DNA of 64,000 nucleotides, taken from contig NZ_JAIFZO010000002.1 of NCBI RefSeq assembly GCF_026341275.1, forward strand, positions 62,001 to 126,000. The letters are read 5' to 3'. Made by a program: the position numbers and the translations under genes. The stretch is from Streptomyces ortus. Its GTDB lineage: Bacteria; Actinomycetota; Actinomycetes; Streptomycetales; Streptomycetaceae. Below, piece after piece: positions 6,201 to 43,560 of the stretch; position 1 is the stretch's first letter, and every line of letters starts with the position of its first letter. Below the pieces are notes generated by a model, which had not been told where the DNA came from, did not search any database, and worked only from the letters and a program-made list of their open reading frames with translations.

Positions 6201-8181
6201 GATCGCCGAACAGCAACAAGCCGTCGCCGACGCCCACGCGAAGAACGCGTCGGAGGCCGCCGCCCAGGCACAGAGCACGGCCAACGCGGCATCCGGCGAC
6301 TCCAAAGCGGCCTACACGCTGGCCGCAGAGGCCGCCGCCTTCTCCGCGGCAGCCCGCGCCTCAGCTAAGGAAGCCCTCGGATACGCCGCAGAAGCCGCCA
6401 CGTATGCGGCGCAGGCCACCCAGTCCCTCGCGCGCACCATCGAATACGACCAACAGGCCACCGAAGACGCCGCAGCAGCAGACCGGGCGGCGGGCCGGGC
6501 CGAGGGCTACGCCGACGACGCCCGCGACTCCGCGGACGAAGCCGCCCTCGATGCCGAAGCCGCCCGCAAAGCCGCAACCGAGGCAGAGCAGGCGGCCACG
6601 GACGCCCGCAAAGCCGCCGACCATGCCGCCATCGAAGCAGCGGCAGCCGAAGAGGCAGCCAAGGACGCCCAGAAGTACGCCGACTCAGCCCAGCAGGCGG
6701 CCGAGGAGGCCGAACGCAAGAAGAACGCCCAGCAGATCGAGACCGGAACCGTCGTCGACGAGGTCGGCACCTCCATCGGCAACATGTTCTACGTCACCGA
6801 CCACACCGACCCGGTCGGCGATCCGAAGGTCGTGGAGAAGTCTGCCGGCTGCGACGGCTTCATCGACAAACTGTTCTACAAGGGCGACTGCACGATCACC
6901 ACAGAGATCCGGTTCAAAGCCACTCTGGACCTGTACCTGTGCGAGGCCGAAGGCCTGTCCTCCGACGACCTCAACGAGACACGCTACGTGTGCCCCGCCA
7001 GCGCCACGGTGTACCTGGGAACACACCCGACCAAGGAGCTGTCCACCAAGGTCACACACACCATCACGATTGCCGAGTACCAAAGGGGCGTCGACCCGGT
7101 CGACATCCTGTTCGGCAGCTGGATCAAGTGCGTCCAGAAGATCGCCCCCGGCGGCGCGAACGGAAGCCTGAGCGGATGCGGCTGGGCAGCCGTGGACGTC
7201 GCGAGCCTGTTCGCAGGAAAGATTCTCAGGCCCATCGCCGACGCGGTCAAGGCGGTGGATGCCTCCGCCAGGACCGGCATTGCGTTTACCGACGCAATCA
7301 GGGGGCTGCGCGCACTCAGCTTGTCGGACGAGGCCGTCGCGGGAATCACCAGGGTGGCGTTCCAGAAACTGGAGAGCCTCTGCCTGAAGGACAGCTTCCC
7401 CGCTGGCACACGAGTTCTTCTGTCTGATGGCCGGTCCAAACCGATCGACGAAATCAACGTCGGCGACAAGGTACTTGCTACCGACCCGGATGCCAGCAGC
7501 ACTCGCCCGGCATCTGTGACGGCGACGTTTTCCCACCCGGCTGACCAACTCCGTCAGATCAGCGTCGCCGGTGGGGGGAAGATCCTCACCACACCCGGGC
7601 ACCGGATCTATGTTCCGGGCCGCGGCTGGGTAAAGGCATCCGACCTGCGGGCAGGCGATTCACTCCGCTCTGCGACCGGTACGCTGAACGCCGTCACGGG
7701 AATTCTTCCAGTGATCGCACCGCAACGGGTATGGGACCTGAGTGTTGCAGACTTGCACAGTTTTTACGTGCTCGCAGGCAGCACTCCGGTGCTCGTTCAC
7801 AACGTCAACTGCGCCTCTTACATTGACGTCTACCCGAGCGGTCTCGGAATCATCGCCGACATCAATAAGGACGGACTCGTCTCGTTTGTCATAACCGCAG
7901 GTAAAGACACCCCCAAGGGTAGCGAGATGTTCAACGCCGCGCTCGCCCACTTCGGCGACGACGTCAAGGGCGTCAAGGCGTACTGGCAAAACGGCGGAGC
8001 GCTCAGCGACAACCTCAACTCCTTCAATGCGGCTATTAGAGGTGGCGCCTCTCTGGAAGAGGCGTCACTGGCCACATTCACTGGGAAAATGTCTTCGAGG
8101 GCAGGATTCACGCATGTAGAGATAATCGAGCTCAGAGGCCTACCTGGCAGCTACACAGAGGTAGGAGCTGTTTTCCGATGA
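3208..8181 (+). CDS. Secreted polymorphic toxin: ricin-B lectin, coiled-coil stalk, Hint, C-terminal toxin domain
   Basis: 1657 residues from the GTG at 3208, chosen because GAAGGA lies 8 bases upstream and the Arg-rich start followed by PLIPLVAIGAVLAGLL (about 42-58) makes a signal peptide or anchor. Residues 60-390 are an unassigned globular part. Residues 397-523 are a ricin-type lectin with three GKCLxx repeats and QKW/QKF motifs. Residues 540-1178 are an extreme Ala/Lys/Glu/Asp coiled coil. Residues 1180-1390 are a Cys-containing pretoxin part. Residues 1392-1534 are a Hint autoprotease domain (SFPAGT start, VGDKVLATDP, TTPGHRIYVPG, closing LVHN). The last 120 residues are a separate domain I cannot assign, placed where polymorphic toxins carry the toxic tip. 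The inferred role is an exported antibacterial toxin that binds glycans and is released by Hint cleavage. A candidate immunity gene follows. Confidence 0.85.
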   Translation: MRLRRSSRSPDAPSGRPFRQPRAQGGRSRLGARTRRVRAASGPLIPLVAIGAVLAGLLGPQPPAGNTVPGSLVGDSYDGFDAGAAEQLRQDQCLMGDSLRLGGPAMGALAQGGLNQTPEQLRVTAAREYWNHTPLAAAFQQDRDATGQNSAALNARLTAWKAPLAGLSTPAGFTDTGFAWPPGVPSGSGADFFDQVGYSKWLGEQYWKDESLFYQDPTPQADAATVKAVKDLGTPLYSDVDPNLPSDQWQQAYAESQAFEELVDGYDPMSADDARLFLAAGGFMRSAPMPGSLEFRLAVEDLKTRFAACSWRNPVDPSKVLGQVVATASAEWQQEITAQATERGKIFSDNRQATTALATGAKALGELLGQSWIADRLTRWQDYWSAGGPGWVGDSPMVVHIHAASDKCLEVGGNSKADGAVVQMYTCNSGANQKWQIANNALVNVSSGKCLDVKSSGTADGTVIQQWTCNQSGAQKWEYTTRGTTRLYNTGTGKCLDMHTYANSQDAWTWTCNGSDPQKFDIVPSGHNGTSDVFYPTQAQFTQAAKGITDARAAAKTQLEVLSKQAQSAGIAAVETDEHLKAAYAIADRDGAPRGRALLVGQQKAQVTKASAAALTAMMQAGQTAEAATRASAGDSATITARAVTQAAATQAAFRNAAAKASREQAKASADAAAVQAKNAKDSRDAAKTKLAETKAAEADAKAAAATAHAKRLAAETEEATAKAEKATAAQKQAEAAQHKTNAQAQASKAQTAKDKADTADTTATEKRQGAETARDKARDLRDDAWEAESKANASRAKADAKEAYAQASESEDNAHEARQAANEADAAADTAETAAASARSEADLATQAAADADAAATRAEAAAKRARSDSDDARAAKLKADAAVRTATSAAADAIKASRSAATAARTADELADDAEKAAADAKTQADASKKDAATALAGATKAAGYAYTTAQAAVDAGNSAAQVAAPANDAIQLGSPYITSDSAAGLAVLTGQSSKTIAEQQQAVADAHAKNASEAAAQAQSTANAASGDSKAAYTLAAEAAAFSAAARASAKEALGYAAEAATYAAQATQSLARTIEYDQQATEDAAAADRAAGRAEGYADDARDSADEAALDAEAARKAATEAEQAATDARKAADHAAIEAAAAEEAAKDAQKYADSAQQAAEEAERKKNAQQIETGTVVDEVGTSIGNMFYVTDHTDPVGDPKVVEKSAGCDGFIDKLFYKGDCTITTEIRFKATLDLYLCEAEGLSSDDLNETRYVCPASATVYLGTHPTKELSTKVTHTITIAEYQRGVDPVDILFGSWIKCVQKIAPGGANGSLSGCGWAAVDVASLFAGKILRPIADAVKAVDASARTGIAFTDAIRGLRALSLSDEAVAGITRVAFQKLESLCLKDSFPAGTRVLLSDGRSKPIDEINVGDKVLATDPDASSTRPASVTATFSHPADQLRQISVAGGGKILTTPGHRIYVPGRGWVKASDLRAGDSLRSATGTLNAVTGILPVIAPQRVWDLSVADLHSFYVLAGSTPVLVHNVNCASYIDVYPSGLGIIADINKDGLVSFVITAGKDTPKGSEMFNAALAHFGDDVKGVKAYWQNGGALSDNLNSFNAAIRGGASLEEASLATFTGKMSSRAGFTHVEIIELRGLPGSYTEVGAVFR

Positions 8182-8219
8182 ATGAGAATCTCGCCCGCCT
8201 AACGAGATAATAGTATTGA

Positions 8220-8260
8220 CGGGGTGGTCTCTTCTGGAGAAAACAGGAGAGGCCACCCCG
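8220..8260 (+). terminator. 17-bp hairpin between toxin and candidate immunity gene
   Basis: Left arm 8220-8236 pairs with 8244-8260 (core GGGGTGG/CCACCCC, two G-T pairs), loop GAGAAAA. It lies 38 bases after the toxin stop and before the 87-aa gene, so it should limit readthrough and leave the downstream gene to another promoter or to partial readthrough. Confidence 0.75.
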
Positions 8261-8301
8261 CCATGGTTAGTCGATAGTGCCGGAAAAAAGGATTGCATTA
8301 G

Positions 8302-8565
8302 ATGAAAGATCTAGAAGGAATCGCAAGCGAGCTGCAGAGAGCACACCTGGAAGGAAAGGATGCAGTGGAACTGGCGAATCTCTGCCGCGAAAAACTCGGT
8401 TCAGGATTCGGCGTAATCTCGTTCATTGCGACATTTCGTATCGCCTTCGACATTCCACTGCCTGCACTTCAGCGTGCTCAGGCATGGCATGGGTTCGAAT
8501 TCGGAGAGGGAAGAATCTCCGACGATGAGTTTTCCACCATTCTAGCTCCCTGGCTCATGAAGTAA
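8302..8565 (+). CDS. Candidate immunity protein, 87 aa
   Basis: The ATG at 8302 follows an AAGGA site. The protein is small, acidic and soluble: a charged N-terminal helix (LEGIASELQRAHLEG), a hydrophobic middle (GVISFIATFRIAFDIPLP), and a C-terminal half ending in APWLMK. It lies directly downstream of the toxin, on the same strand, where polymorphic toxin loci carry their cognate immunity gene. It uses lower-GC codons (CTA, GGA, ATT) than its neighbours, as expected for a recently swapped toxin/immunity cassette. No family was recognised, so immunity is inferred from size and position only. Confidence 0.6.
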   Translation: MKDLEGIASELQRAHLEGKDAVELANLCREKLGSGFGVISFIATFRIAFDIPLPALQRAQAWHGFEFGEGRISDDEFSTILAPWLMK

Positions 8566-8614
8566 CACAGCCGCAACATTGGCCACTTCCTCACAGTAGC
8601 CAATGTGACACACG

Positions 8615-8980
8615 GTGCGCGACGGACTGCGCCGTCGGTCACGCACGGAGCTGGGGGAGGAGGCGGCGAAGACCTACGCCAAGGAGATCGCCACGCTCGA
8701 CAAGGCGATGCACGCCACCCGTACCCCCGACATCTTTGCCACCCGTACCCGCGGCGGCGGCAGCAAGGGTGGGACGACCGGCGACGTGGACACCGCCGAC
8801 GCCGGCGGGGACGACGAGGTGCCGACCGGGAAGAAGGAGAAGGAGGACCGCAACTACGTCAAGGCGGTGTGCAAGTGCACCCCGCCCGCGGTCATCCGGG
8901 TTTCCCCGAAGACGCTGGAACGTCGCAACATCATGTGCGGCGACTGCATGGAGAACTTCGCGCCGGAGGAGTCCGCCTGA
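8615..8980 (+). pseudogene. Zinc-ribbon tail resembling the C-terminus of SprT-like proteins
   Basis: 121 codons from a GTG only 9 bases after an in-frame TGA, with no clear ribosome site. The C-terminal 45 residues have the pattern CKC...IRVSP...CGDC, a zinc ribbon like the one closing actinobacterial SprT-like metalloprotease domain proteins. The HExxH part is absent. The middle (about residues 45-85) is Gly/Asp/Lys rich. I read it as the 3' remnant of a longer gene whose front was lost when the toxin/immunity cassette was inserted. It could still be expressed as a short zinc protein. Confidence 0.45.
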
Positions 8981-9096
8981 TGATGATCTGTCAGCAGTAC
9001 GACCCGGGGCCCGGCTTCGCGTTCGCCGTCGACCTGAACGAGTCGTCATGGAGTGCTCCGGACTTCTGGTGTCCATGCGCGTCTTGCTCTGCCTGA
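8980..9096 (+). CDS. Small ORF coupled to the zinc-ribbon gene
   Basis: 38 codons starting in an overlap with the preceding stop (TGATG), which suggests translational coupling. The end is Cys-rich (WCPCASC), so it might bind metal. No family is known to me. Short and of uncertain reality. Confidence 0.35.
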   Translation: MMICQQYDPGPGFAFAVDLNESSWSAPDFWCPCASCSA

Positions 9097-9130
9097 TCGG
9101 GGCAGGGAATGGCCCGGTCAGGGCTATCGT

Positions 9131-9149
9131 TACGAGCGTTACGCTCGTA
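9131..9149. promoter_or_regulatory. Palindromic operator TACGAGCG-N3-CGCTCGTA
   Basis: A perfect 8-bp dyad with a 3-base spacer, 17 bases before the start of the small HTH gene at 9166. A near copy overlaps the promoter at 9339-9367. The two sites probably bind the same regulator, most likely the product of 9166. Confidence 0.65.
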
Positions 9150-9165
9150 TGTCAGGGAGGCGGTT

Positions 9166-9342
9166 ATGGGCGAGTTGTGGACGGTGGAGCAGGCGGCGGC
9201 CCACTGGGGCGTGTCCGAGTCGCGGGCGCGGGCAATCCTGGCTAGCCGGCACATCCGGCGCGTCTCGGGCTATCCGGCCGAGGAGATCCGTCAGGTGCGG
9301 TTGCGTCAGGGCGCGCGGACCGACCTCCGCAAGGACTCTTGA
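9166..9342 (+). CDS. Small MerR/excisionase-type HTH protein
   Basis: 58 residues from the ATG at 9166, with a GGGAGG ribosome site upstream. The start LWTVEQAAAHWGVSESRARA is a winged-helix/HTH signature of the MerR-excisionase type, where VSESRARAILA is the recognition helix; the remainder is basic. Such proteins act as repressors or as recombination directionality factors. Palindromes matching each other lie just upstream of this gene and inside the promoter of the next, so I infer autoregulation and control of 9403-9567. No integrase is adjacent. Confidence 0.75.
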   Translation: MGELWTVEQAAAHWGVSESRARAILASRHIRRVSGYPAEEIRQVRLRQGARTDLRKDS

Positions 9343-9367
9343 CTTGCGAGCGCATTGCTCGTAAGTT
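9339..9367 (+). promoter_or_regulatory. Promoter with embedded operator
   Basis: TTGACT at 9339-9344, a 17-base spacer and TAAGTT at 9362-9367 form a good vegetative promoter for the 54-aa gene. The spacer contains TTGCGAGC-N5-GCTCGTAA (9344-9364), which differs by one base from a dyad and shares ACGAGC/GCTCGT with the site at 9131-9149. Binding would block polymerase. Confidence 0.7.
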
Positions 9368-9402
9368 GCGGTTAGTCCCGTAGGCGTGAAGGAGGAAAAG
9401 AA

Positions 9403-9567
9403 ATGGCTGATCAGCAGGCGTACCAGGTGAAGGTCGAGTACAAGCCGACCGGCGAGACGTACAGCCGATTCGCGGTGGCCACCAGCAAGACCGCGGCGGA
9501 GCAGCAGATCGCCAAGAAGCTCCCCAACGAGCCCGGCAGCCAGCACAGCCGCATGGTCAGCGGCTGA
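9403..9567 (+). CDS. Hypothetical small protein, 54 aa
   Basis: The ATG is preceded by GGAGG at 7 bases. The protein is hydrophilic, starting MADQQAYQVKVEYKPTGE, with no signal peptide or membrane segment and no recognised family. It has its own controlled promoter and a perfect terminator, so it is a discrete regulated transcript. Its role is unknown; it may be the main target of the adjacent HTH protein. Confidence 0.75.
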   Translation: MADQQAYQVKVEYKPTGETYSRFAVATSKTAAEQQIAKKLPNEPGSQHSRMVSG

Positions 9568-9581
9568 TCTCGCAAGCCCAT

Positions 9582-9615
9582 AGTGAGGCCCCCACGATTC
9601 CGTGGGGGCCTCACT
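9582..9615 (+). terminator. Perfect 15-bp hairpin
   Basis: Arms 9582-9596 and 9601-9615 (AGTGAGGCCCCCACG and its complement) with a 4-base loop, 14 bases after the stop of the 54-aa gene. Confidence 0.9.
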
Positions 9616-9744
9616 GCGTTCTCTGCGGTTCCTCGCGCGGCCTCCAGCGTTTGGTGGTTGCGCAAGCCCCGGTCATCCCCTTCACGGGGGGCTGGGGCCC
9701 GCGGTGTTGGGCGAACATCCGCAGTGCCGTAGGAGAACAGCGGA

Positions 9745-33629: not shown

Positions 33630-34265
33630 TCAGTTCCCGGTTGGAGACTGGGGTGGGACGGGGCCCTCACCCGCGTAGGTGTGGCCGCGCGGGGCCGACG
33701 GTGCGTCGTCTTCAGAGAGGGTCAGACTGAGCCAGGGGCCGGCGACGGCGTCGTCGTCCAGGCTGATGCCGAGGTGGTCAAGTACGAGAGCCACCACTGG
33801 TGCCATTCCGGCGCTTTCGCCCTCGTGTGCGGCGAGTGCCGTCTCGACACGGTCCCGCCAGGGGCCGGTGGGCCCGGTGCCTGGCATGCCCGGCTCGAAG
33901 TTCTCGACGCATTCGCCGTCGCGCCAGTGCTGGAAGACGTCAAGGCCTTCGGTGGTCAGCACGCTGTACGTCTCGGTGCCCCGGGACAGGGCTGCGAGCG
34001 GTTCGGCCCAGGAGCCGATGACGCCGTCCTCCTCGATGCAGAAGGTCCAGTCGCCGAGGCTGCCGGACCGCAGCAGTGAGACCGCTCCGTCGGCAAGTTG
34101 GCCGGTGGGCAGTTCCGACGCCTGGTCCGCGTCGAGGAGACGGGAGCGGGACGGGTCGGCCCCGTACCGGGTGAACACCTCCTCGGCGGTCAGGTCCCGG
34201 GTAAAGGTGACGCACATCCAGGCTGTCGCCCAGTCGAGCGAGGGTGCGTCATCGTTTGCTGGCAT
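33630..34265 (-). CDS. DUF6461-like protein, candidate immunity for the NucA/NucB DNase
   Basis: 211 residues from the ATG at 34265 (GGAGG at 6 bases). It starts MPANDDAPSLDWATAWMCVTF, then LTAEEVFTRYGADP, a DUF6461-like pattern, and is strongly acidic overall (rich in Asp/Glu). The acidic nature and size fit an inhibitor of a basic secreted DNase. It follows the nuclease gene on the same strand after a hairpin, the position of an immunity gene. It has no signal peptide, so it would protect from inside the cell. The immunity role is inferred from context. Confidence 0.6.
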   Translation of the reverse strand: MPANDDAPSLDWATAWMCVTFTRDLTAEEVFTRYGADPSRSRLLDADQASELPTGQLADGAVSLLRSGSLGDWTFCIEEDGVIGSWAEPLAALSRGTETYSVLTTEGLDVFQHWRDGECVENFEPGMPGTGPTGPWRDRVETALAAHEGESAGMAPVVALVLDHLGISLDDDAVAGPWLSLTLSEDDAPSAPRGHTYAGEGPVPPQSPTGN

Positions 34266-34354: not shown

Positions 34355-35746
34355 TCAGGCCGTGAACTCGATACGGAAGGGGTCGTTGTTCACCAGGCGC
34401 TGGTACTTGCGGAGTGAGCCGAGGACACCGCCCGCCGAGCTGTTGGCCCGCTGGCTGATGTGCAGCCGCAGGCAGGTTTCGGTGCCTGTGGTCGGACGGT
34501 CCGGCCAGGTTGCCGGGGCGGACCAGACGTTGTTCACGACCTGCGGGGTCAGTTCGGCGCACAGGCTTCCGTCCTGGCCGCCCTCCTTGGTGCTGGCCAT
34601 CGGGAACTCGTCGCAGCTGTCCGCGCCGCTCGTGTTCGGGTGGATGTTGGTGAAGGGCGTGCAGGTCGCGGCGCGGTTGGTGTTCGCCTGGTCCTGGTCG
34701 ACGGCGTGCAGGATGTTGGTGCCCCGCCGCTGCATGATCTCTTCGTAGATGGGGACGACGATCCCGTACTTCTCGTGGGAGCGGGAGTAGCTCAGTACCG
34801 GAAGGTCGTCGGTGGGGATGACGCAGCCGCGTAGCCGGGGCTGTTCCTTGTCGCAGCGGATCTCGCCGTCTGCGGGGCTGGACCAGGAGGCGTTCTCGTC
34901 GATCGGGGTGGCGCCGGGCATCGTCACGTACATCGCGTAGCTGGTGCGGAAGGAGGAGCGGGTCGTGTCGGTGGCGAAGGAGTCGCCGCTGTACTTGGTG
35001 GAACCCGAGACCTGCTGTTGCGGCACCAGGGTGGTGGCGAACCAGGGCTGCTGGGTGACGGTCTTGCAGCCGGCTCCGCAGCTGACCTTCATGCGCACCG
35101 TGAGGCTCTTCACGTCACCGGAGACGTTGATCAGTTTGGCGGTGATCGTTTCTTTGAGGTCGAGGGTCTTGTAGGAGGTGGCGAGGGTGGAGTTCACCTC
35201 GATGTCGCCGGTGCCGATGGGGACGCTTTGCGCGTTGTAGAGCGTGTACTTGACGATGACGCCACGCAGGCACATGCCGCCGGTGCGGCTCCAGGTCCAC
35301 TGGCCCTCGTTGGCGACTGCGCAGGAGGGCTCGGGCGGCTCCGGATCATCGGCGTCCGGCTCGAACTCCGAGGTGGTGCCGTCACCGGACGGGTCGTCGG
35401 CGGCAGCGGCGGTGATGCCGGCGGCGGGCGGGGAGGGTGCGGCAGGCTGACGGCTCGTGGCGCCGCTCTTCTCAGCGGATACGGGCTGTACACGTGTGCA
35501 CGCTTTGACCGCGCCGCCCGCGTCCGTGCGGTTCTCGGTGGGGATCGTGGTACAGGTTGTGTCTGCGGTAAAGGCGGCGCTCTGTGTGAGTGTTTCGGCG
35601 GAGGTTGTCGCCGCGGTGGTGGCCGCCGGTGTGGCGATGGTGGTGGCGGCCGGTGTGGCCTGGCTGATGCCGGCTCCGGTGGTGCCGGTCGCGGTGACGG
35701 CGAGGAGGGCTGCCATCAGCAGCGCCGGTCTGGATGGTTTTCTCAC
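34355..35746 (-). CDS. Secreted NucA/NucB-type DNase downstream of umbC
   Basis: 463 residues. Residues 1-30 are a Sec signal (RPALLMAALLAVTATG). Residues 30-140 are Ala/Thr/Pro-rich and low complexity. Residues 140-270 look beta-rich with several Cys (CAVANEGQWTWSRTGGMC; KVSCGAGCK). The C-terminal 170 residues hold the NucA/NucB motif CDEFPMASTKEGGQDGS near residue 385, then RLVNDPFRIEF at the end. NucA/NucB enzymes are extracellular, metal-dependent DNases. The gene starts 57 bases after umbC on the same strand, so it belongs with the umbrella-toxin operon; a candidate immunity gene follows. It is likely a secreted effector or a scavenging nuclease. Confidence 0.8.
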   Translation of the reverse strand: MRKPSRPALLMAALLAVTATGTTGAGISQATPAATTIATPAATTAATTSAETLTQSAAFTADTTCTTIPTENRTDAGGAVKACTRVQPVSAEKSGATSRQPAAPSPPAAGITAAAADDPSGDGTTSEFEPDADDPEPPEPSCAVANEGQWTWSRTGGMCLRGVIVKYTLYNAQSVPIGTGDIEVNSTLATSYKTLDLKETITAKLINVSGDVKSLTVRMKVSCGAGCKTVTQQPWFATTLVPQQQVSGSTKYSGDSFATDTTRSSFRTSYAMYVTMPGATPIDENASWSSPADGEIRCDKEQPRLRGCVIPTDDLPVLSYSRSHEKYGIVVPIYEEIMQRRGTNILHAVDQDQANTNRAATCTPFTNIHPNTSGADSCDEFPMASTKEGGQDGSLCAELTPQVVNNVWSAPATWPDRPTTGTETCLRLHISQRANSSAGGVLGSLRKYQRLVNNDPFRIEFTA

Positions 35747-35803
35747 AGTGTGTCTCCTGCTTCGAGCTTCACGTTGTTCATGGGGATGGGGGTGGGGGGC
35801 GTA

Positions 35804-38800
35804 TCAGGCGACCAGGTCGACGAGGCTCTTAGTGATGCTGGAGACCTTGTCCTCGGCGACGTCCGTGATCTTGTCTACGACGGGCTTGATGAGCTTGCCG
35901 CCAGCGGCTTTGTCGGCTGCGCCCAGCCACTTGGACTGGCCGAAGGTGACCAGGCTCAGGCCGGTGCCGGCGGCGGAGGTGAAGAACTCGCCGCTGGTGA
36001 AGCCGTGTTCGATGCCGGTGAAGAGGGAGCCGAGGGCGCCCGCGCCGGTGGCGAGGGTGGCGAAGAAGCCGGCTGCGGCGAGGGCCGGCGGGAAGACGAA
36101 GGCGGCGAGGGTGCAGCCGGCTGCGAGGAAAGCGGCGCCGATGCTGACCGCGTTGGCCGCGTCGGCGTAGAACTGGGCGTCGTTCCACCATTCGTCGGAG
36201 TTGGCGGGGTCCTTGGTGCCGTTGGGGTTGACCTGGTCGTTCTTGCCGTTGCCGGCCGGGTCGAGTTTGGCGTCACGGTCGGCCTTGGCCTTGGCTGCGG
36301 CCTCCCTGGCTTTGGCGATCACCTCGGCGGCGTGCTTCTCGGCGGTGATCCGCTGGGCCTCGGAGTAGGCGGCGGCGGCCGCTGTGGCGTCCGCCTGCGC
36401 GGCAAGTTTGGCGGCACGGGCTGCGGCAGCCGACGTCTGGGCCGCGGCGGAGGACTTGAGAGCGGCGCGCGCCGAGTCCATCGCCTTGTTGGCGGAGTAG
36501 TTCGCTGAGCGGGCCGCGCCGCGGGCGGTCGCGGCGGCCGACTTCGCGGTGTTGGCGGAGGCCTGGGCATCGGCGGCCGACTTGTCGGCGGCGTCCGCGT
36601 TCCGGCGCGCCTCGTCGGCGAAGTTTTCGGCCTTGGCGGCGGAGGCGATCGCCTTGTCCGCCCATTCCTGGGCCTTGGCGGCGTCGTTACGGGCGTCGTA
36701 GGAGGCCTTGGTCGCCAGCGCGGCGTCCTCCTGCGCCTTCTCGGCGATCTTCGCTGCTGCCGCGATGGCGCCGCGGATCGCGGCGACGTGGGTGGCGGTG
36801 TCGTGGTCGAACTGGGCCGTACGGAACTGGACCAGGGTGATGAAGTTGCGGAGCATCCACGCCGGGCCCTCGAGGGCGACCTCCGCGTACGCCTTGGTGA
36901 AGGCGCCGCCGGTGGTGAGGAGCTCGTTGGCGCGGACCCGGTCGTCCTCGTAGACCGCCAGCGGGTAGTCGTGGTCGAAGAAGTAGTTGAGCGATTCGGT
37001 GGTGTTGATGTCGAGCGCCTTGTTGCCGGCGGCCTTGACGGCCTTGCCCGCGCCCTCATCGGCGATGATCTTGTTGATTGCCACCCGCAGTTCCTCGTCC
37101 GAGGCTCTCTTCATCCCGCTGGTGAGGAAGTCGCCGACGGCCGCGATGTCAGAGCTCTCCAGGGCGAGCGCGGCGGCCTCGGCGACCTTCGGTGCGGCGA
37201 TGGTCGCCACGTGGAGTGCGGTCTCACGGTCGTCCTGGCTCTGGGCGACGCTCCGGTCGATGTCGATCCAGGCGTAGACGTCGTCGTCGGAGCCGGCGAG
37301 CGCGTGCTGGGCGGCCTGCCGGGTCCAGGCGCCCCTGGCATCAAGCAGGGCGATAGCGGCCTTGCGCCCCAGGGGCGCAGCGAGACCCAGATCACCGGAG
37401 TACAGGGCCTGCTCGGCCTGGGCGATCCGGTCCTTGGTCTCCTGCGTGGTGCGGTCCGCAAGGAGCCGCTTGTCGCGGACGTCGGCCAGTTCGGTCGTCT
37501 CGATGGAGGCGAGTAGCTGTGCCTCCTCGATCGCCTGCTGCTTGTCCTGCTCCAGGGTCTGGGCCTCGGCGGCGCGCGCGTTCTTCTCCACCTCGATGGC
37601 GTCGGACACGGCCTGGGTGGCAACGTTCGCGGCTTTCACGGCCTGATCGGAGTGTGCGGTCGACTTGTTGGCGTAGTCGATGGCCTGGCCTGCGTACTTC
37701 ACGGCCTCCTCGGCGGCGGCTGCCGCCTTGTCGGCGTGGTCGGCTGCGGAGTTGGCGGCGTCGCGCGCGGTGCGTGCCGCCGCCGCGGCGGCGGACGCCA
37801 GGGACTGGGCGGCGGAGGCTGCGTTGGTAGCGCGGTTGGCGGCGCTGGTGGCGATGGCGGCCTGGCGCTTCGCCTCGTCGGCCTCGGCCTTGGCGGCACC
37901 CGCCGAGGCGGCGGCCTGTGCGGCGGCGGTGGCGGCGGCGGCCGAGTTGCGTGCGGCGGAGGCGGCCGCCTTGCCGGCGGTCGCCGCCTGGTCGCCGGCG
38001 ATGGCCGCCTTGTCGGCGGCCTTGGCAGCGGTACGGGCCTTGTCGGCGGCGTTCTTCGCGGCGACCGCAGCGTCCTTGGCGATCTGTGTCTTGTTCGCGT
38101 CCTTGGAGGCGGCTATCGCTGCGCTGTAGGCGTAGGCTGCGGCGCTGCCTGCCTTCGAGGCGGCCTGTGCGGCGCCGGCGGCTGCCCAGGAGGCGCGGCG
38201 GGATGCCTTCACCGCGGCGTTGGAGGCGTTGATGGCGTTGCGTGCGGCGTCTGCCGCGCCCTTTGCCGCGCTCGACGCTTTGCGGGCCGCGGCCGCTGAC
38301 TTCTGCACATCGCTCTGGGCGGCGGATGCCTCGGCGGCGGCTTTCTGGGCGGCCTCCTTGGCTTTTCCGGCGGCGGTTTCGGCGCGTGCGGAGGCCTCCA
38401 CGGCCAGGTTGGTCTCGCGTTCGGCGCGCTTGCCCTCGCGCTCGACGACGGCCACCAGTTCCTCGATGGTCGCCGACTCCTGGTCGCGGGCACGCGCGAT
38501 GTGCTGACCGGTCTCGATGAACCACTCCACATCGGTCGCGGTGCCGCTGAGCGCACGGTTCGCGTACTTCCGCACCTCCGCGCCGGCGGTCAGCAGCATG
38601 GCGCTGATCTGGACCTGGGTGTCCTCCAGGCGTGCGTCGTACTGCTTGTCGGTGAGGAAGGCGGTGAGTGTCGGCGCGGTGCCGGTGTCGAGGGCGGTGT
38701 TGGCGTCGCGCACCACCGCCTTGTCGCCGGTGGCCGAGACGACGGTGGTGGCGACCTGGAGGTCTTCGATGATGGCGGGTTTGAAGCCGTCTTTCAGGAA

Positions 38801-39184
38801 CGCGGCGATCGCGGTGTCGCCGTTCTCGAGGGCGGCGACGGCCTCCCGGCGCAGGCCCTTGCCCGCACGGTCCAAGCTGCGAACGATCGCGACCCGGTTG
38901 TCTTCCACGGTCTGCTTGGGCAGCGTCTCAACGAGGAACGTCTGGATGTCGGCATCTGTCCCGTAGAGGGCCTGGGCGGCGGCGGCTTTGACGCCCTTGC
39001 CTCCGGTCAGCCACGCCCTGACAACCTTGGCGCGCTCGGTGTCCGGCAGCGGCACCGGTTCGGGCACGGCGCTTTCGGTGGCAGCGGCGGTGGCCGGTAT
39101 CAGGGCCGAGGGTGTGGCCGCTACGGCGGCAGCGGCCGCGAGAGAGCCGAGTACGCGGCGTCTGCTCCAGAACGTTGTCTGCAT
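35804..39184 (-). CDS. umbC: UmbC: ALF-repeat ring and coiled-coil stalk protein of an umbrella toxin
   Basis: 1126 residues from the ATG at 39184 (AAGGAA upstream). It starts with a twin-arginine signal (SRRRVLGSLAAAAAV). Residues 50-235 are four ALF-type repeats (AWLTGGKGVKAAAAQALYG and relatives). Residues 235-590 are a very long Ala-rich coiled coil. Residues 608-800 hold four more ALF repeats. Residues 800-965 are a second coiled coil. Residues 978-1126 are a linker and a hydrophobic Gly/Ala-rich domain (SIGAAFLAAGCTLAAFVFPP) ending VDLVA. This two-fold ALF-and-coil layout is the known UmbC plan: eight ALF repeats build a ring and the coils a stalk with the toxin tip. The tip has no nuclease motif and looks membrane-active or pretoxin-like. 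It is divergent from umbB-umbA. Confidence 0.9.
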   Translation of the reverse strand: MQTTFWSRRRVLGSLAAAAAVAATPSALIPATAAATESAVPEPVPLPDTERAKVVRAWLTGGKGVKAAAAQALYGTDADIQTFLVETLPKQTVEDNRVAIVRSLDRAGKGLRREAVAALENGDTAIAAFLKDGFKPAIIEDLQVATTVVSATGDKAVVRDANTALDTGTAPTLTAFLTDKQYDARLEDTQVQISAMLLTAGAEVRKYANRALSGTATDVEWFIETGQHIARARDQESATIEELVAVVEREGKRAERETNLAVEASARAETAAGKAKEAAQKAAAEASAAQSDVQKSAAAARKASSAAKGAADAARNAINASNAAVKASRRASWAAAGAAQAASKAGSAAAYAYSAAIAASKDANKTQIAKDAAVAAKNAADKARTAAKAADKAAIAGDQAATAGKAAASAARNSAAAATAAAQAAASAGAAKAEADEAKRQAAIATSAANRATNAASAAQSLASAAAAAARTARDAANSAADHADKAAAAAEEAVKYAGQAIDYANKSTAHSDQAVKAANVATQAVSDAIEVEKNARAAEAQTLEQDKQQAIEEAQLLASIETTELADVRDKRLLADRTTQETKDRIAQAEQALYSGDLGLAAPLGRKAAIALLDARGAWTRQAAQHALAGSDDDVYAWIDIDRSVAQSQDDRETALHVATIAAPKVAEAAALALESSDIAAVGDFLTSGMKRASDEELRVAINKIIADEGAGKAVKAAGNKALDINTTESLNYFFDHDYPLAVYEDDRVRANELLTTGGAFTKAYAEVALEGPAWMLRNFITLVQFRTAQFDHDTATHVAAIRGAIAAAAKIAEKAQEDAALATKASYDARNDAAKAQEWADKAIASAAKAENFADEARRNADAADKSAADAQASANTAKSAAATARGAARSANYSANKAMDSARAALKSSAAAQTSAAAARAAKLAAQADATAAAAAYSEAQRITAEKHAAEVIAKAREAAAKAKADRDAKLDPAGNGKNDQVNPNGTKDPANSDEWWNDAQFYADAANAVSIGAAFLAAGCTLAAFVFPPALAAAGFFATLATGAGALGSLFTGIEHGFTSGEFFTSAAGTGLSLVTFGQSKWLGAADKAAGGKLIKPVVDKITDVAEDKVSSITKSLVDLVA

Positions 39185-39620
39185 GGGAAATTCCTTATCG
39201 AGGCAGCGGAGTGAGGCCCGCCGCAATCGCGCCGACAGGGCAAGCCACGGAAATACGTGCGGGGGCATCACTGAATTGCAGTGACCCTATCAACTCGCAG
39301 CCTTAAAACCAGCGTTGTGGGCCGGGCAGGGCAACTCGGCCACAATGCATGCCTTTACATGACCCTCACAATCATCCATACAACCTTTTCGCGAGATGGC
39401 GAAGGTCACACCAAGCATGTATTCAATGCCCCGTTTGGGCAGGTAAAAGCGGTAGACCAAGGGTCTACTTCGTGTTGCCATGACGGAACCCACGGTGATG
39501 ACGCGTCGTCAAGCCTGTCCCCAGGGTGGCCGGGCGGGGCGCTTCAGGACGACGATAAGAGCCTTTGAACACTCAATCCTGTCCTGTATGCCTGTGATTT
39601 TATTCGAGCTGAGGAATGCA
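39185..39620. promoter_or_regulatory. Divergent promoter region of the Umb locus with a dyad
   Basis: 436 bases separate umbC (leftward) from umbB (rightward), lower in GC than the genes. GTAGACC-AAG-GGTCTAC at 39452-39468 is a perfect dyad and a plausible operator. No gene is supported here; short frames inside are unlikely. Confidence 0.65.
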
Positions 39621-40169
39621 ATGAGGAAGCGCAGCACAATGACACCGCGACAGCGAAGAATTGGACTTGCGGCAAGAATTTTCGGCACTGTGGCAACCGG
39701 CGCTCTCACAATCCTCGCGATGACCACCGGCCTCCTCGGCTCGCCCGCCCATGAGACATCGGCATCACCCGGGCTTGTCGCGGACGGCACTCCCGGCTAC
39801 GCCGTCGAGGACTACAACTACCCGCAGGCCGACAAAATCCTGGCGGAGAAGAACCTCGTCCTCAAGCGCGGCGACGGACACATCACCCTCGCTGACTGCG
39901 CGGCCGGCACGGGGCAGCTGGAGCTCCTGGCACGCAACAACACCAGCAAGATCTGCTTCAAGGTCGTCGGCAACGAGGGCTGGCTGACCCTGGAGATCCC
40001 TTCCGTCTACTCGGTGAAAGGCAACGACTACTCCACCACCGTCGACATGACCGTCGGCGCCGAGGAGAAGACCTACGAGATCGACAAGAACACCTGGACA
40101 CCTGTGGGTGAGGCCGCGGACACAGAAGGCCGGGAGCACATGCTCGTGGAGATCCGGACGACGAAGTAG
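39621..40169 (+). CDS. umbB: UmbB: adaptor protein of the umbrella toxin
   Basis: 182 residues from the ATG at 39621 (GAGGAA upstream). Residues 1-45 are a basic N-terminus with a hydrophobic signal or anchor (IFGTVATGALTILAMTTGLL). The mature part is a small beta-rich domain (ELLARNNTSKICFKVVGNEG, YSTTVDMTVGAEEKTYEID) of about 130 residues with two Cys. The size, secretion and position between umbC and umbA match UmbB, which links lectin spokes to the UmbC ring. It is cotranscribed with umbA. Confidence 0.8.
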   Translation: MRKRSTMTPRQRRIGLAARIFGTVATGALTILAMTTGLLGSPAHETSASPGLVADGTPGYAVEDYNYPQADKILAEKNLVLKRGDGHITLADCAAGTGQLELLARNNTSKICFKVVGNEGWLTLEIPSVYSVKGNDYSTTVDMTVGAEEKTYEIDKNTWTPVGEAADTEGREHMLVEIRTTK

Positions 40170-40260
40170 CCGCGTGCGGGTGCAGATTCCCGCAACTGCC
40201 CTGTTCAGCACCGCATGCCTATCGTCCAAGTCCGCGTCCAGCAAGGAACCTCGCACACCC

Positions 40261-42471
40261 ATGAGACTCACCAGACGATCCCGCAGCGTCGCGCTCGCCG
40301 CGTCCATGGCCGCCGCACCGCTCATGCTGAGCGCTGTTCCGGCCGCCGCCGTAACCGGCCCGGCTTCCGCCGCCGCCGACACCACCCACGCCTACACCGC
40401 ACAGCTGACCATCGGCAGTCACGACCAGGGCTGCTCCGGCGTTCTGGTCGACACCGAATGGCTACTCACCGCCGCCAGCTGTTTCGCCGCGGACCCGGCG
40501 ACCAGCCTTGCCGTCGACGCCGGCGCGCCCAAGAAGCCGGTCACCGCCACCATCGGCCGCACCAATCTGAGCAGCAGCTCCGGCGCCGTACGCCAGGTAG
40601 TCGAGCTGGTGCCGCGCACCGACCGCGATGTGGTCCTGGCCCGCCTGAACCAGCCAGTCACCAACGTCGCGCCGGCCACCCTGGCCAGCACCGCACCCAC
40701 CGCCGGCGAGGAACTGAAGTTCGCGGGCTACGGCCGTACCGCTGATGAGTGGGCGCCGCTGAGCCTGCACACCGGCACCTACACCGTCAACTCGGCCGCC
40801 GCTACCACGGCGGCCGTCACCGGCAAGGACGCCGCCGCATGCCTGGGCGACTCCGGCGGCCCCGTCCTTCGCGGTACCGGCTCCACGGCTCAGCTGATCG
40901 CCCTCAACAGCCAGTCATTCCAGGGCGGTTGTCTCGGCACCGACGCCACTCAGACCAGTACCGCAGGTATCACCGCCCGTGTCGACGACCTGAAGTCCTG
41001 GATCGACACTAAGGTCCGCGCCACAGCGATCACCGACTTCAACGGTGACGGCGTCGAAGACATCGCCATCGCCGATCCGAAGGCGAGCGTCGGCGGGGAT
41101 GCCGGCGCCGGCCTGGTACGGGTCGTGTACGGCGGCAAGGGCACCGCTCAGATCGACCAGGACCTGGACTGGGTGTCCGGCGGAGCCGAGGCGAACGACG
41201 GCTTCGGCGAGGCGCTGGCCACCGTCGATTACAACCAGGACGGATACACCGACCTGGTGGTCGCCAGCCCGGGAGAGGCACTGGCCGACGTCCCGAACGC
41301 GGGCATGGTCCACGTACTCTTCGGCGGCCCCAGCGGACTGGGAACCGGAGCGGTCAAGAGCAAGAACCTGGAGCAGGGCGCGGGCACCGGCGCGATCCTC
41401 GCCTCGACCTCCGAGGCCGGTGACCGCATGGGCCAGGCCCTCACGGCCGGCACCACAGCCGCAGGCCGCCCGTGGATCCTCATCGGTGTACCGGGCGAGT
41501 CCGTCGGCACCGAGGCCGGGGCCGGCATGGTCTTCTACGTCTACGGCGACACCAGCCGCACCCTCCACCAGGACCTTCCCACCTCAGTGCCGGGGGTGGC
41601 CGAGGCCGGCGACAAGTTCGGTGCCGCCGTCGCGGGCGACGGAAACTTCTTCGCCATCGGCGCGCCCGGCGAAGCCATTGGCACCGCGACCGAATCCGGC
41701 ACGGTGGCCCTGTTCAGCCACACCCTGGACGCGGACGGCCGGCCCACCTCCATCGGCGGTCTAGACCAGGACAACAGCGCAGTCACCGGTGCCGCCGAGG
41801 CGGGCGACGAGTTCGGGGCCGCCCTGGCCATGACCGCCTACCGCTCCTCCACCACGACCGGTAGCAACACCTCCATGCTGGCGATCGGTTCACCGGGCGA
41901 GACCACCACCGCTGGCGGTGCCGACGCAGGGGAAGCAGGCCGCGCCATCCTGGTACGGGTCAACGCCGACAGCACCTGGAGCTACCTGCGTGAACTCCGC
42001 CAGGGCGAAGCGGACGACACAGTCGTGGGCACCTCGGAGACCGGTGACCGGATGGGAGAGAGCCTGACAGCGATCAACACTGCGCCGCGCGAAGTAGCCA
42101 CCGCTACCACCCTGCTCCTCGCCGTCGGAACCCCTGGTGAGGCCATCGGTACGGAGGCCGCGGCCGGGGCGATCCACAGCTTCTCGATGCTGGGCGCGGC
42201 GGGCGACAGCGACCTGTGGCTCGAAGCCGGAGACGGCGACGGCATTCCCGGCACTCCCAAAGCCGGCCAGCGCGTGGGCCAGAGCATCCACTTCACCGGC
42301 ACTCGCCTGTACGCCGGCATGCCTTACGGGCCCAGCGCCTACGGCGCCCTGCATGCCCTGCCGATCGGCAATGTCATTCCCGGCGGCACCGACGGAACGG
42401 TGACCACCTACCAACCCGGAGCCGGCGGCCTACCCACGACGGGAACCGCGTTCGGCTACGCCGCGCGCTGA
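40261..42471 (+). CDS. umbA: UmbA: trypsin-fold/beta-propeller lectin protein
   Basis: 736 residues from the ATG at 40261. Residues 1-38 are a signal peptide. Residues 40-245 have a trypsin fold: Asp123 and GDSGG (Ser198) are present, but the catalytic His position reads LLTAASC with Ser73, so it should be a pseudoprotease. Residues 255-730 are FG-GAP/VCBS-like propeller repeats (DFNGDGVEDIAIADP; IGVPGESVG; IGAPGEAIG; VGTPGEAIG), the lectin that targets cell surface glycans. It completes the Umb set with umbB and umbC. A hairpin at 42486-42517 may terminate the operon. Confidence 0.85.
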   Translation: MRLTRRSRSVALAASMAAAPLMLSAVPAAAVTGPASAAADTTHAYTAQLTIGSHDQGCSGVLVDTEWLLTAASCFAADPATSLAVDAGAPKKPVTATIGRTNLSSSSGAVRQVVELVPRTDRDVVLARLNQPVTNVAPATLASTAPTAGEELKFAGYGRTADEWAPLSLHTGTYTVNSAAATTAAVTGKDAAACLGDSGGPVLRGTGSTAQLIALNSQSFQGGCLGTDATQTSTAGITARVDDLKSWIDTKVRATAITDFNGDGVEDIAIADPKASVGGDAGAGLVRVVYGGKGTAQIDQDLDWVSGGAEANDGFGEALATVDYNQDGYTDLVVASPGEALADVPNAGMVHVLFGGPSGLGTGAVKSKNLEQGAGTGAILASTSEAGDRMGQALTAGTTAAGRPWILIGVPGESVGTEAGAGMVFYVYGDTSRTLHQDLPTSVPGVAEAGDKFGAAVAGDGNFFAIGAPGEAIGTATESGTVALFSHTLDADGRPTSIGGLDQDNSAVTGAAEAGDEFGAALAMTAYRSSTTTGSNTSMLAIGSPGETTTAGGADAGEAGRAILVRVNADSTWSYLRELRQGEADDTVVGTSETGDRMGESLTAINTAPREVATATTLLLAVGTPGEAIGTEAAAGAIHSFSMLGAAGDSDLWLEAGDGDGIPGTPKAGQRVGQSIHFTGTRLYAGMPYGPSAYGALHALPIGNVIPGGTDGTVTTYQPGAGGLPTTGTAFGYAAR

Positions 42472-42873: not shown

Positions 42874-43560
42874 GTGGGTCGCTATCAACAGCATTTGATC
42901 AAGTCTGCTCTGCGGGGCCTCGCGGCCGCCGCCCTCATCGTCCTGCCGTACGCGGCCGCCCCGCCGGCCCACGCCGCGCAGAGCGTTCCGCTCGCCGCGG
43001 CCGTCGAGCGCCTGACTGTAGGCACCGAGTCGCGGGAGGGATATCAGCGCACGTCCTTCAAGCACTGGAACGCCGGCCGGAATCCTTCCGACGGCTGCAG
43101 TACCCGCAGCGAGGTGCTGATCTCCGAGGCCGTCGACGCCCCTGAGATCGGCCCCGCCTGCCGGCTGACGGGCGGCCGCTGGTGGTCCTATTACGACGCG
43201 ACCTGGGTGACCTCCGCGTCCGGCCTGGACATCGACCACATGGTGCCCCTGGCGGAAGCCTGGGACTCGGGTGCCTCCGCCTGGACGGCGCAGCGCCGCG
43301 AGGCCTACGCGAACGACCAGGGCGCGGAGACGTCCCTGGTGGCCGTCACTGGCAGATCCAACCGCAGCAAGAGCGACAAGGACCCGGCCGACTGGATGCC
43401 GCCCGCCCCCGACGCCGCGGTGCGTTGCACGTACGCCGCACAGTGGGTGGGTACGAAGCTGCGCTGGAATCTCACCGTCGACGACGGTGAACTCGCGGCC
43501 CTGCGGGACGTCGCCGGCGGCTGTCCGCTGGAGTCCGTGGCGTACGAGCCCGCCGGGTAG
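42874..43560 (+). CDS. Secreted HNH nuclease (DUF1524/GmrSD C-terminal type)
   Basis: 228 residues from the GTG at 42874 (a TTG 21 bases later is an alternative). A signal peptide (KSALRGLAAAALIVLPYAAA, then PAHAAQ) is followed by a mature domain with the HNH layout: LDIDHMVPLAEAWDSGA, SLVAVTGRSNRSKSDKDPAD, then WMPPAP and CRLTG/CTYA Cys pairs. This family gives extracellular DNases in Streptomyces. It lies just beyond umbA, so it could support the antagonism region, but it is common elsewhere too. Confidence 0.85.
   Translation: MGRYQQHLIKSALRGLAAAALIVLPYAAAPPAHAAQSVPLAAAVERLTVGTESREGYQRTSFKHWNAGRNPSDGCSTRSEVLISEAVDAPEIGPACRLTGGRWWSYYDATWVTSASGLDIDHMVPLAEAWDSGASAWTAQRREAYANDQGAETSLVAVTGRSNRSKSDKDPADWMPPAPDAAVRCTYAAQWVGTKLRWNLTVDDGELAALRDVAGGCPLESVAYEPAG

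Follow-up and report, generated by a model that had tools for sequence, protein, structure and literature searches.

An umbrella toxin locus of Streptomyces ortus with a separately encoded nuclease that may serve as an exchangeable payload

Our analysis of a window of 64,000 nt from Streptomyces ortus (assembly GCF_026341275.1, contig NZ_JAIFZO010000002.1, positions 62,001-126,000, forward strand; positions within this window are used below) suggests that its umbrella toxin (Umb) locus encodes a variant particle in which the toxic enzyme resides in a separate polypeptide supplied in trans, while the membrane tip of the stalk protein UmbC has turned into a delivery module, a reading to which we assign a probability of slightly under 60%. 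The simplest account of the data is that the stalk tip no longer kills alone, and since the arrangement recurs in related loci with swapped nucleases, the system has the look of a particle whose payload can be exchanged. In the window, umbC, the nuclease gene (57 bp behind it) and a gene of the DUF6461 family follow one another on the minus strand, and umbB and umbA lie on the plus strand, pointing away from the umbC unit. The features are as follows (pLDDT, predicted local distance difference test score).

35804-39184, minus strand: umbC, with eight PF03752 stretches (PDB 8w20 chain A, E 5.8e-101)
35804-36199, minus strand: UmbC tip, the hydrophobic, predicted four-helix end of the protein (tip search; low-confidence model, pLDDT 49)
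34355-35746, minus strand: putative detached effector (nuclease) of 463 aa with signal peptide (by eye), variable linker, beta-sandwich region and NucA/NucB-type domain (PF14040, 33.4 bits; homologues in related umb loci)
34847-35335, minus strand: beta-sandwich region, effector residues 138-300 (model pLDDT about 50-80; invariant Cys in the family alignment)
34355-34678, minus strand: nuclease domain, effector residues 357-463, with equivalents of NucB D93/E94 (CDEFP) and N117 (N..AGG)
33630-34265, minus strand: DUF6461 gene, probable immunity protein (PF20062, 46 bits; sits behind N-type effectors, with orphan copies)
39621-40169, plus strand: umbB adaptor (PDB 8w20 chain B)
40261-42471, plus strand: umbA, trypsin-like domain and FG-GAP repeats, probably a beta-propeller lectin (Pfam; PDB 8w20 chain C, 9oee)

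A preliminary description of this DNA had recognized UmbA, UmbB and UmbC with their signature domains, and both Pfam and matches to the chains of the Umb1 cryo-electron microscopy structure agree with it. The UmbC open reading frame (ORF; 1155 aa) starts with a twin-arginine-like stretch, MQTTFWSRRRVLG, read by eye and including RRRVLG, matches S. coelicolor UmbC1 over residues 66-1008 with the tail outside the match, and contains the eight ALF repeats that had been counted earlier (PF03752, E 2.7e-38), which are all eight ALF matches of the whole genome (8 contigs, 9.29 Mb). UmbB matched its chain at E 5.5e-18, and UmbA, in which Pfam finds Trypsin and FG-GAP, matched chain C at E 1.5e-58 and also 9oee. 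By eye, UmbA reads TAASC at the trypsin His motif, where we take TAAHC to be the usual sequence. The secreted NucA/NucB-type gene described as next on the same strand was likewise confirmed, above the Pfam cut-off and as the single PF14040 match of the genome. The gene places were thus correct in the preliminary description, but its locus ended one gene short, as the DUF6461 gene belongs to the unit.

At gene level, the locus resembles the Streptomyces Umb particles (PMC11062931, PMC13274773) in all three proteins, their neighbourhood and their domains, among them the Tat signal, eight ALF repeats and coiled coils of UmbC. According to these papers, the toxin domain is the C-terminus of UmbC and the immunity gene, where identified, lies behind umbC, directly so for some UmbCs and not for all. 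The window locus differs in that the UmbC tip has no recognised enzymatic domain and that umbC is followed immediately by a nuclease gene and not by an immunity gene, the immunity-like gene coming only after the nuclease. The main text of both papers, supplements aside, contains no word starting with 'nuclease', and no description of a detached Umb payload was found in literature searches on umbrella toxins, UmbC plus nuclease, and ALF repeat plus NucA; a search for DUF6461 returned nothing.

The window effector exceeded the PF14040 cut-off of 23.8 bits over profile positions 26-65 only, and it keeps the active-site Asp, Glu and Asn. PMC5758888 gives D93/E94/N117 and H53 as the catalytic residues of Bacillus licheniformis NucB; for H53 our alignment (A8) yields no unambiguous equivalent. 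The protein thereby resembles the NucA/NucB beta-beta-alpha metal nucleases, but differs from them in its length, in the beta-sandwich in front and in the DUF6461 gene behind. Its homologues form two payload types with a common beta-sandwich region. N-type effectors (nine umb-linked, three stand-alone) have a NucA/NucB domain with CDEFP and N..AGG, and the 18 S-type effectors have the same scaffold with N..AGG gone and an Endonuclea_NS_2-like domain (PF13930) added C-terminally, which was found by Pfam above cut-off in 5/5 scanned and by blastp in 18/18. The NucA/NucB domain of the S-types is apparently inactive, since Ala or Gly replaces the equivalent of NucB Asp93 in 18/18 of them (the next Glu is retained in 5/18). 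That such an apparently dead domain is kept under an additional nuclease suggests a function of the scaffold besides catalysis, most simply docking. Unlike in other Endonuclea_NS_2 nucleases, the added domain, which is absent from the window, sits behind an apparently dead scaffold on a protein apart from UmbC; a direct fusion of either nuclease domain to UmbC, as in a cis ancestor, gave no blastp match at E 1e-3 in 104 UmbC ORFs. Two loci carry N and S cassettes in tandem (L011 and L072), and in L011 the first of the two effectors behind umbC is the S-type and the second is like the window nuclease. Fold look-up with the beta-sandwich model returned adaptin-ear-like, arrestin, pore-toxin and other sandwiches (Z 7-9), from which no function is drawn because the model is of low confidence. 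The nuclease part of the effector model had a pLDDT below 50, and neither the nuclease itself nor a profile of 18 nuclease domains found a PDB sequence match at E 1.

The association of these effectors with umb loci is tight. Of 246 genomes of the genus, 33 matched at E 1e-3 a profile (A2) built from the N-terminal and middle parts of the effector, and the search gave 28 strong genes (E <1e-39, including that of the window) in 22 genomes, and umb genes lie at or beside 25 of these 28. A second profile, of ALF repeats 5-8 (A4), found UmbC in at least 77 of the 246 genomes. Among the matches listed, all 22 UmbCs closest to that of the window have an effector nearby (in G014 the locus is split over two contigs), as against none of 81 ORFs in 80 further stretches, where six of the 81 have less than 3 kb of sequence downstream. 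The Fisher probability of 7e-23 for this comparison measures tightness and not independent origins, because the 22 are one related group. The preliminary description had considered that no other umbC locus might have an adjacent secreted NucA/NucB gene, which these counts contradict. S-type effectors were found only at umb loci (18/18, including L081 with a broken UmbC), and so was the one in L190, a locus of the same genus with a tip UmbC and an S-type effector that was added by a class-wide sample (394 genomes, seven with a match at 1e-8). S. cellulosae JCM 4462 and S. albogriseolus JCM 4616, both named strains, carry the locus as well. In these counts L076, L081 and L087, whose UmbC runs off the contig, are excluded from the 23 nuclease-linked UmbC ORFs examined below and L076 also from the nine N-types, L081 and L087 are counted among the 18 S-types, and L190 is in neither type count. 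In L076 (G242:C711, 3158-4989) the UmbC start abuts a partial N-type effector on a small contig, owing to a deletion or an assembly artefact. In L081 (G006:C13, 10444-11079) an UmbC with a large internal loss lies beside an S-type effector and its immunity-like gene; a fuller locus (L082) exists at another place in that genome.

Each payload type is coupled to an immunity-like gene of its own. N-type effectors were accompanied by DUF6461 in 9/9 umb-linked loci and S-type effectors by immS, as we term a gene whose product of about 345 aa belongs to another family, in 18/18 loci; immS had no Pfam match over threshold, and blastp at E 1e-3 detected neither family in the 80 remaining umb stretches. 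Both genes occur in full only in the two tandem loci. Close copies without effector were found for DUF6461 in G109 (93% identical to that of the window), G218, G131, G066 and G226, and for immS in G226, G038, G177, G136 and G083; the 33 genomes with effector matches include none of these nine. Only close immS copies were counted as orphans, because the immS profile picks up a large, broader family as well (146/246 genomes at 1e-15). Judged by this coupling and by the orphan copies, DUF6461 is the probable immunity protein of the N-type nuclease. The sole cross match between the types is a 30-residue immS-like fragment, corresponding to the protein start, behind the DUF6461 gene of the N-type locus L075 (11543-11785), perhaps a relic of a lost second cassette. 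In L072 (12379-13133) the DUF6461 match behind the N-type nuclease is split over two frames by a frameshift or a sequencing error, and in L195 (G218:C1:1178000-1197500), a stretch with no UmbC match, immS and DUF6461 are next to each other, accompanied by 55 aa left over from an N-type nuclease (about 7771-9683).

The UmbC tip of about 130 aa had no Pfam match, no enzymatic domain was found in it, and the four long helices are those of an AlphaFold model of low confidence. It is present in 23/23 nuclease-linked UmbC ORFs examined, which leaves the candidate explanation of the tip as an ordinary hypervariable toxin unsupported. Nor is it unusual, as a similar tip occurs in 43 of the 104 UmbC ORFs, a set that includes loci chosen for their nuclease, and a hidden Markov model (HMM) built from the tips of the nuclease clade recognizes a further 20 UmbCs that lack the nuclease (best E 1.7e-44, L111). 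This frequent tip group, hydrophobic and predicted to be four-helical, probably corresponds to the published '4TM tox', the four transmembrane helices of S. coelicolor UmbC2 in the Umb papers (PMC11062931, PMC13274773), but the nuclease clade differs from the rest of the group by lacking a small membrane-immunity-like gene. By a crude hydropathy rule, a small ORF with at least two membrane spans lies behind umbC in 13/20 tip UmbCs without nuclease (counting that of L127, 885 nt away) and in 9/19 short-tail UmbCs without tip match, as against 0/23 UmbCs of the nuclease clade and 0/42 long-tail UmbCs (0/23 versus 13/20: Fisher 2e-6, uncorrected for the kinship of the sequences). Several of these small proteins form one family (A9), which has a match in 35/246 genomes and none in the window genome at E 1e-3. 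In genomes of the nuclease clade the strong A9 matches (G068, G077, G153, G216) lie behind a second, different UmbC; those in G115 and G201 are weak. The preliminary description had posed a membrane-acting tip and a nuclease acting in trans as an either/or; both alternatives are retained here and prove compatible, only their exclusivity being lost, as the tip is homologous to membrane-toxin-like tips whose membrane immunity gene is missing at this locus. Further A9 members in G020, G111, G016 and G164, which have no UmbC among the matches listed, possibly represent orphan immunity to membrane-tip umbrella toxins.

A quick tree of 30 UmbCs, comprising the 23 that bear a nuclease and 7 of the 81 that do not, places those with nuclease on one side of one branch (support 88, unstarred), and one change suffices for nuclease presence. 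Payload type, in turn, needs seven changes, and the starred branches force at least five for the S label and at least five for the N label; some of these could stem from ancestral tandem cassettes followed by losses. The S-type tree rejects the UmbC groups L085/L088/L092/L093 (approximately unbiased test, p-AU 2e-4) and L082/L083/L089 (p-AU 7e-39), values that are too favourable because an S-type tree had been seen before the groups were named. From this contradiction, in a test that covers S-types only, it follows that S-type cassettes very probably moved between UmbC backbones. The earlier interpretation is partly supported; the exchangeable payload that it proposed gains from the conflict between the trees and from the existence of two payload types that have separate immunity-like genes.

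Taken as a mechanism, UmbA, UmbB and UmbC would build the usual particle of lectin spokes, ring and stalk, and UmbC would end in a four-helix membrane module akin to tips that appear to act as membrane toxins with a membrane immunity gene of their own. In the nuclease clade, where that gene is missing, the module would most likely serve for docking, translocation or both. The payload would be the secreted nuclease encoded behind umbC. In the N-type it has beta-sandwich and NucA/NucB domain; in the S-type of relatives the NucA/NucB domain is apparently dead and an Endonuclea_NS_2 domain stands at the C-terminus. The nuclease would join the particle outside the cell, possibly by binding to it directly, pass through or with the tip into the target and kill it there by cutting DNA, and the producer would be protected by DUF6461 (N-type) or the 345-aa family (S-type). 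At slightly less than even odds we hold the wider proposition that in one clade the tip, once a membrane toxin complete in itself, has become a module for loading and translocation that serves a separate, swappable enzyme on a carrier scaffold, so that a strain with cassettes in tandem could load a single particle with two different nucleases.

Several observations weigh against a nuclease that is delivered by the particle. Doubt arises chiefly from the N-type nucleases with DUF6461 in genomes without UmbC match: of the 28 strong effector genes, three (one in G149 and two in G235) are paired with DUF6461 but have no umb genes in the stretch, and G149 and G235 have no UmbC match at E 1e-20. Together with weaker nuclease relatives that lack umb genes (L098-L108, and L189, a nuclease of another family of bacteria from the class-wide sample without umb genes nearby), these pairs show that the beta-sandwich is not an Umb-only module, and the candidate role of this region as an Umb-specific docking domain is weakened, as the stand-alone relatives have it too. 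Five loci (L085, L087, L088, L092, L093) have their effector gene on the umbA/umbB side and not directly behind umbC. As the nuclease-bearing UmbCs form one tree group, the 22/22 linkage does not represent 22 independent events. The missing membrane ORF alone is weak evidence, because 7/20 tip UmbCs without nuclease also have none by the same rule, and the tip appears only modestly more conserved in the nuclease clade than in other tip UmbCs (identity 0.66 versus 0.59 at a ring identity of 0.65-0.75).

The stand-alone pairs in genomes without UmbC keep alive, as an unlikely alternative, the view that the locus encodes two independent weapons, in which the tip would still be a membrane toxin and the nuclease would be secreted separately, being only co-inherited and co-regulated with the particle. 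The clear homology of the tip to tips with a membrane-immunity-like gene, as in the HMM match to L111, is also in line with this view, but no such gene lies behind any of the 23 nuclease-linked umbCs, the strong matches of the membrane-immunity family in genomes of this clade adjoin their second UmbC, and S-type effectors were found only at umb loci. Cooperation without binding, in which the UmbC tip would perforate the target envelope and a freely secreted nuclease would enter through the damage, is improbable. Although it would fit the hydrophobic, predicted four-helix tip and the signal peptide of the nuclease, the producer would then need immunity to the tip, for which no gene was found behind umbC or in the window genome, and a free nuclease would presumably be diluted and untargeted. 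That the nuclease is an unrelated neighbour, an extracellular DNase for scavenging or for biofilm DNA, is very improbable and was rejected, because the linkage of 22/22 (closest UmbCs among the matches listed) versus 0/81 and the coupled immunity-like genes with their orphan copies contradict it, as does the fact that the same scaffold has acquired a different nuclease domain at loci of this kind, even though nuclease relatives without umb genes exist and Bacillus NucB disperses biofilm DNA according to PMC5758888.

If the nuclease is indeed delivered in trans by the particle, payloads would add a third level of combinatorial variation to those of lectin and UmbC, and some UmbCs without annotated toxin could be explained, the Cell paper on Umb counting 8131 UmbCs of which 7099 have annotated toxin domains. 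The legend of Fig. 5d of the Nature Umb paper treats the translocation of umbrella toxins into the target as an open question, and a natural clade with stalk tip and enzyme in separate genes makes the two jobs separable for testing. Two families in this clade are also candidates for immunity proteins, namely DUF6461 and a second that has no Pfam match over threshold.

Three minor observations concern other umb genes and neighbours. In the window, a crude gene call places a gene for a small secreted-looking protein behind umbA (42895-43560, plus strand). L120 (2-5482) has an unusually long open frame containing UmbC, with 1826 codons up to the stop. Another recurrent UmbC tail, extending 357-365 aa past the repeats and ending in VTLGP, was found in L139, L144-L147, L151, L152 and L154, and several of these loci have a small gene directly behind umbC.

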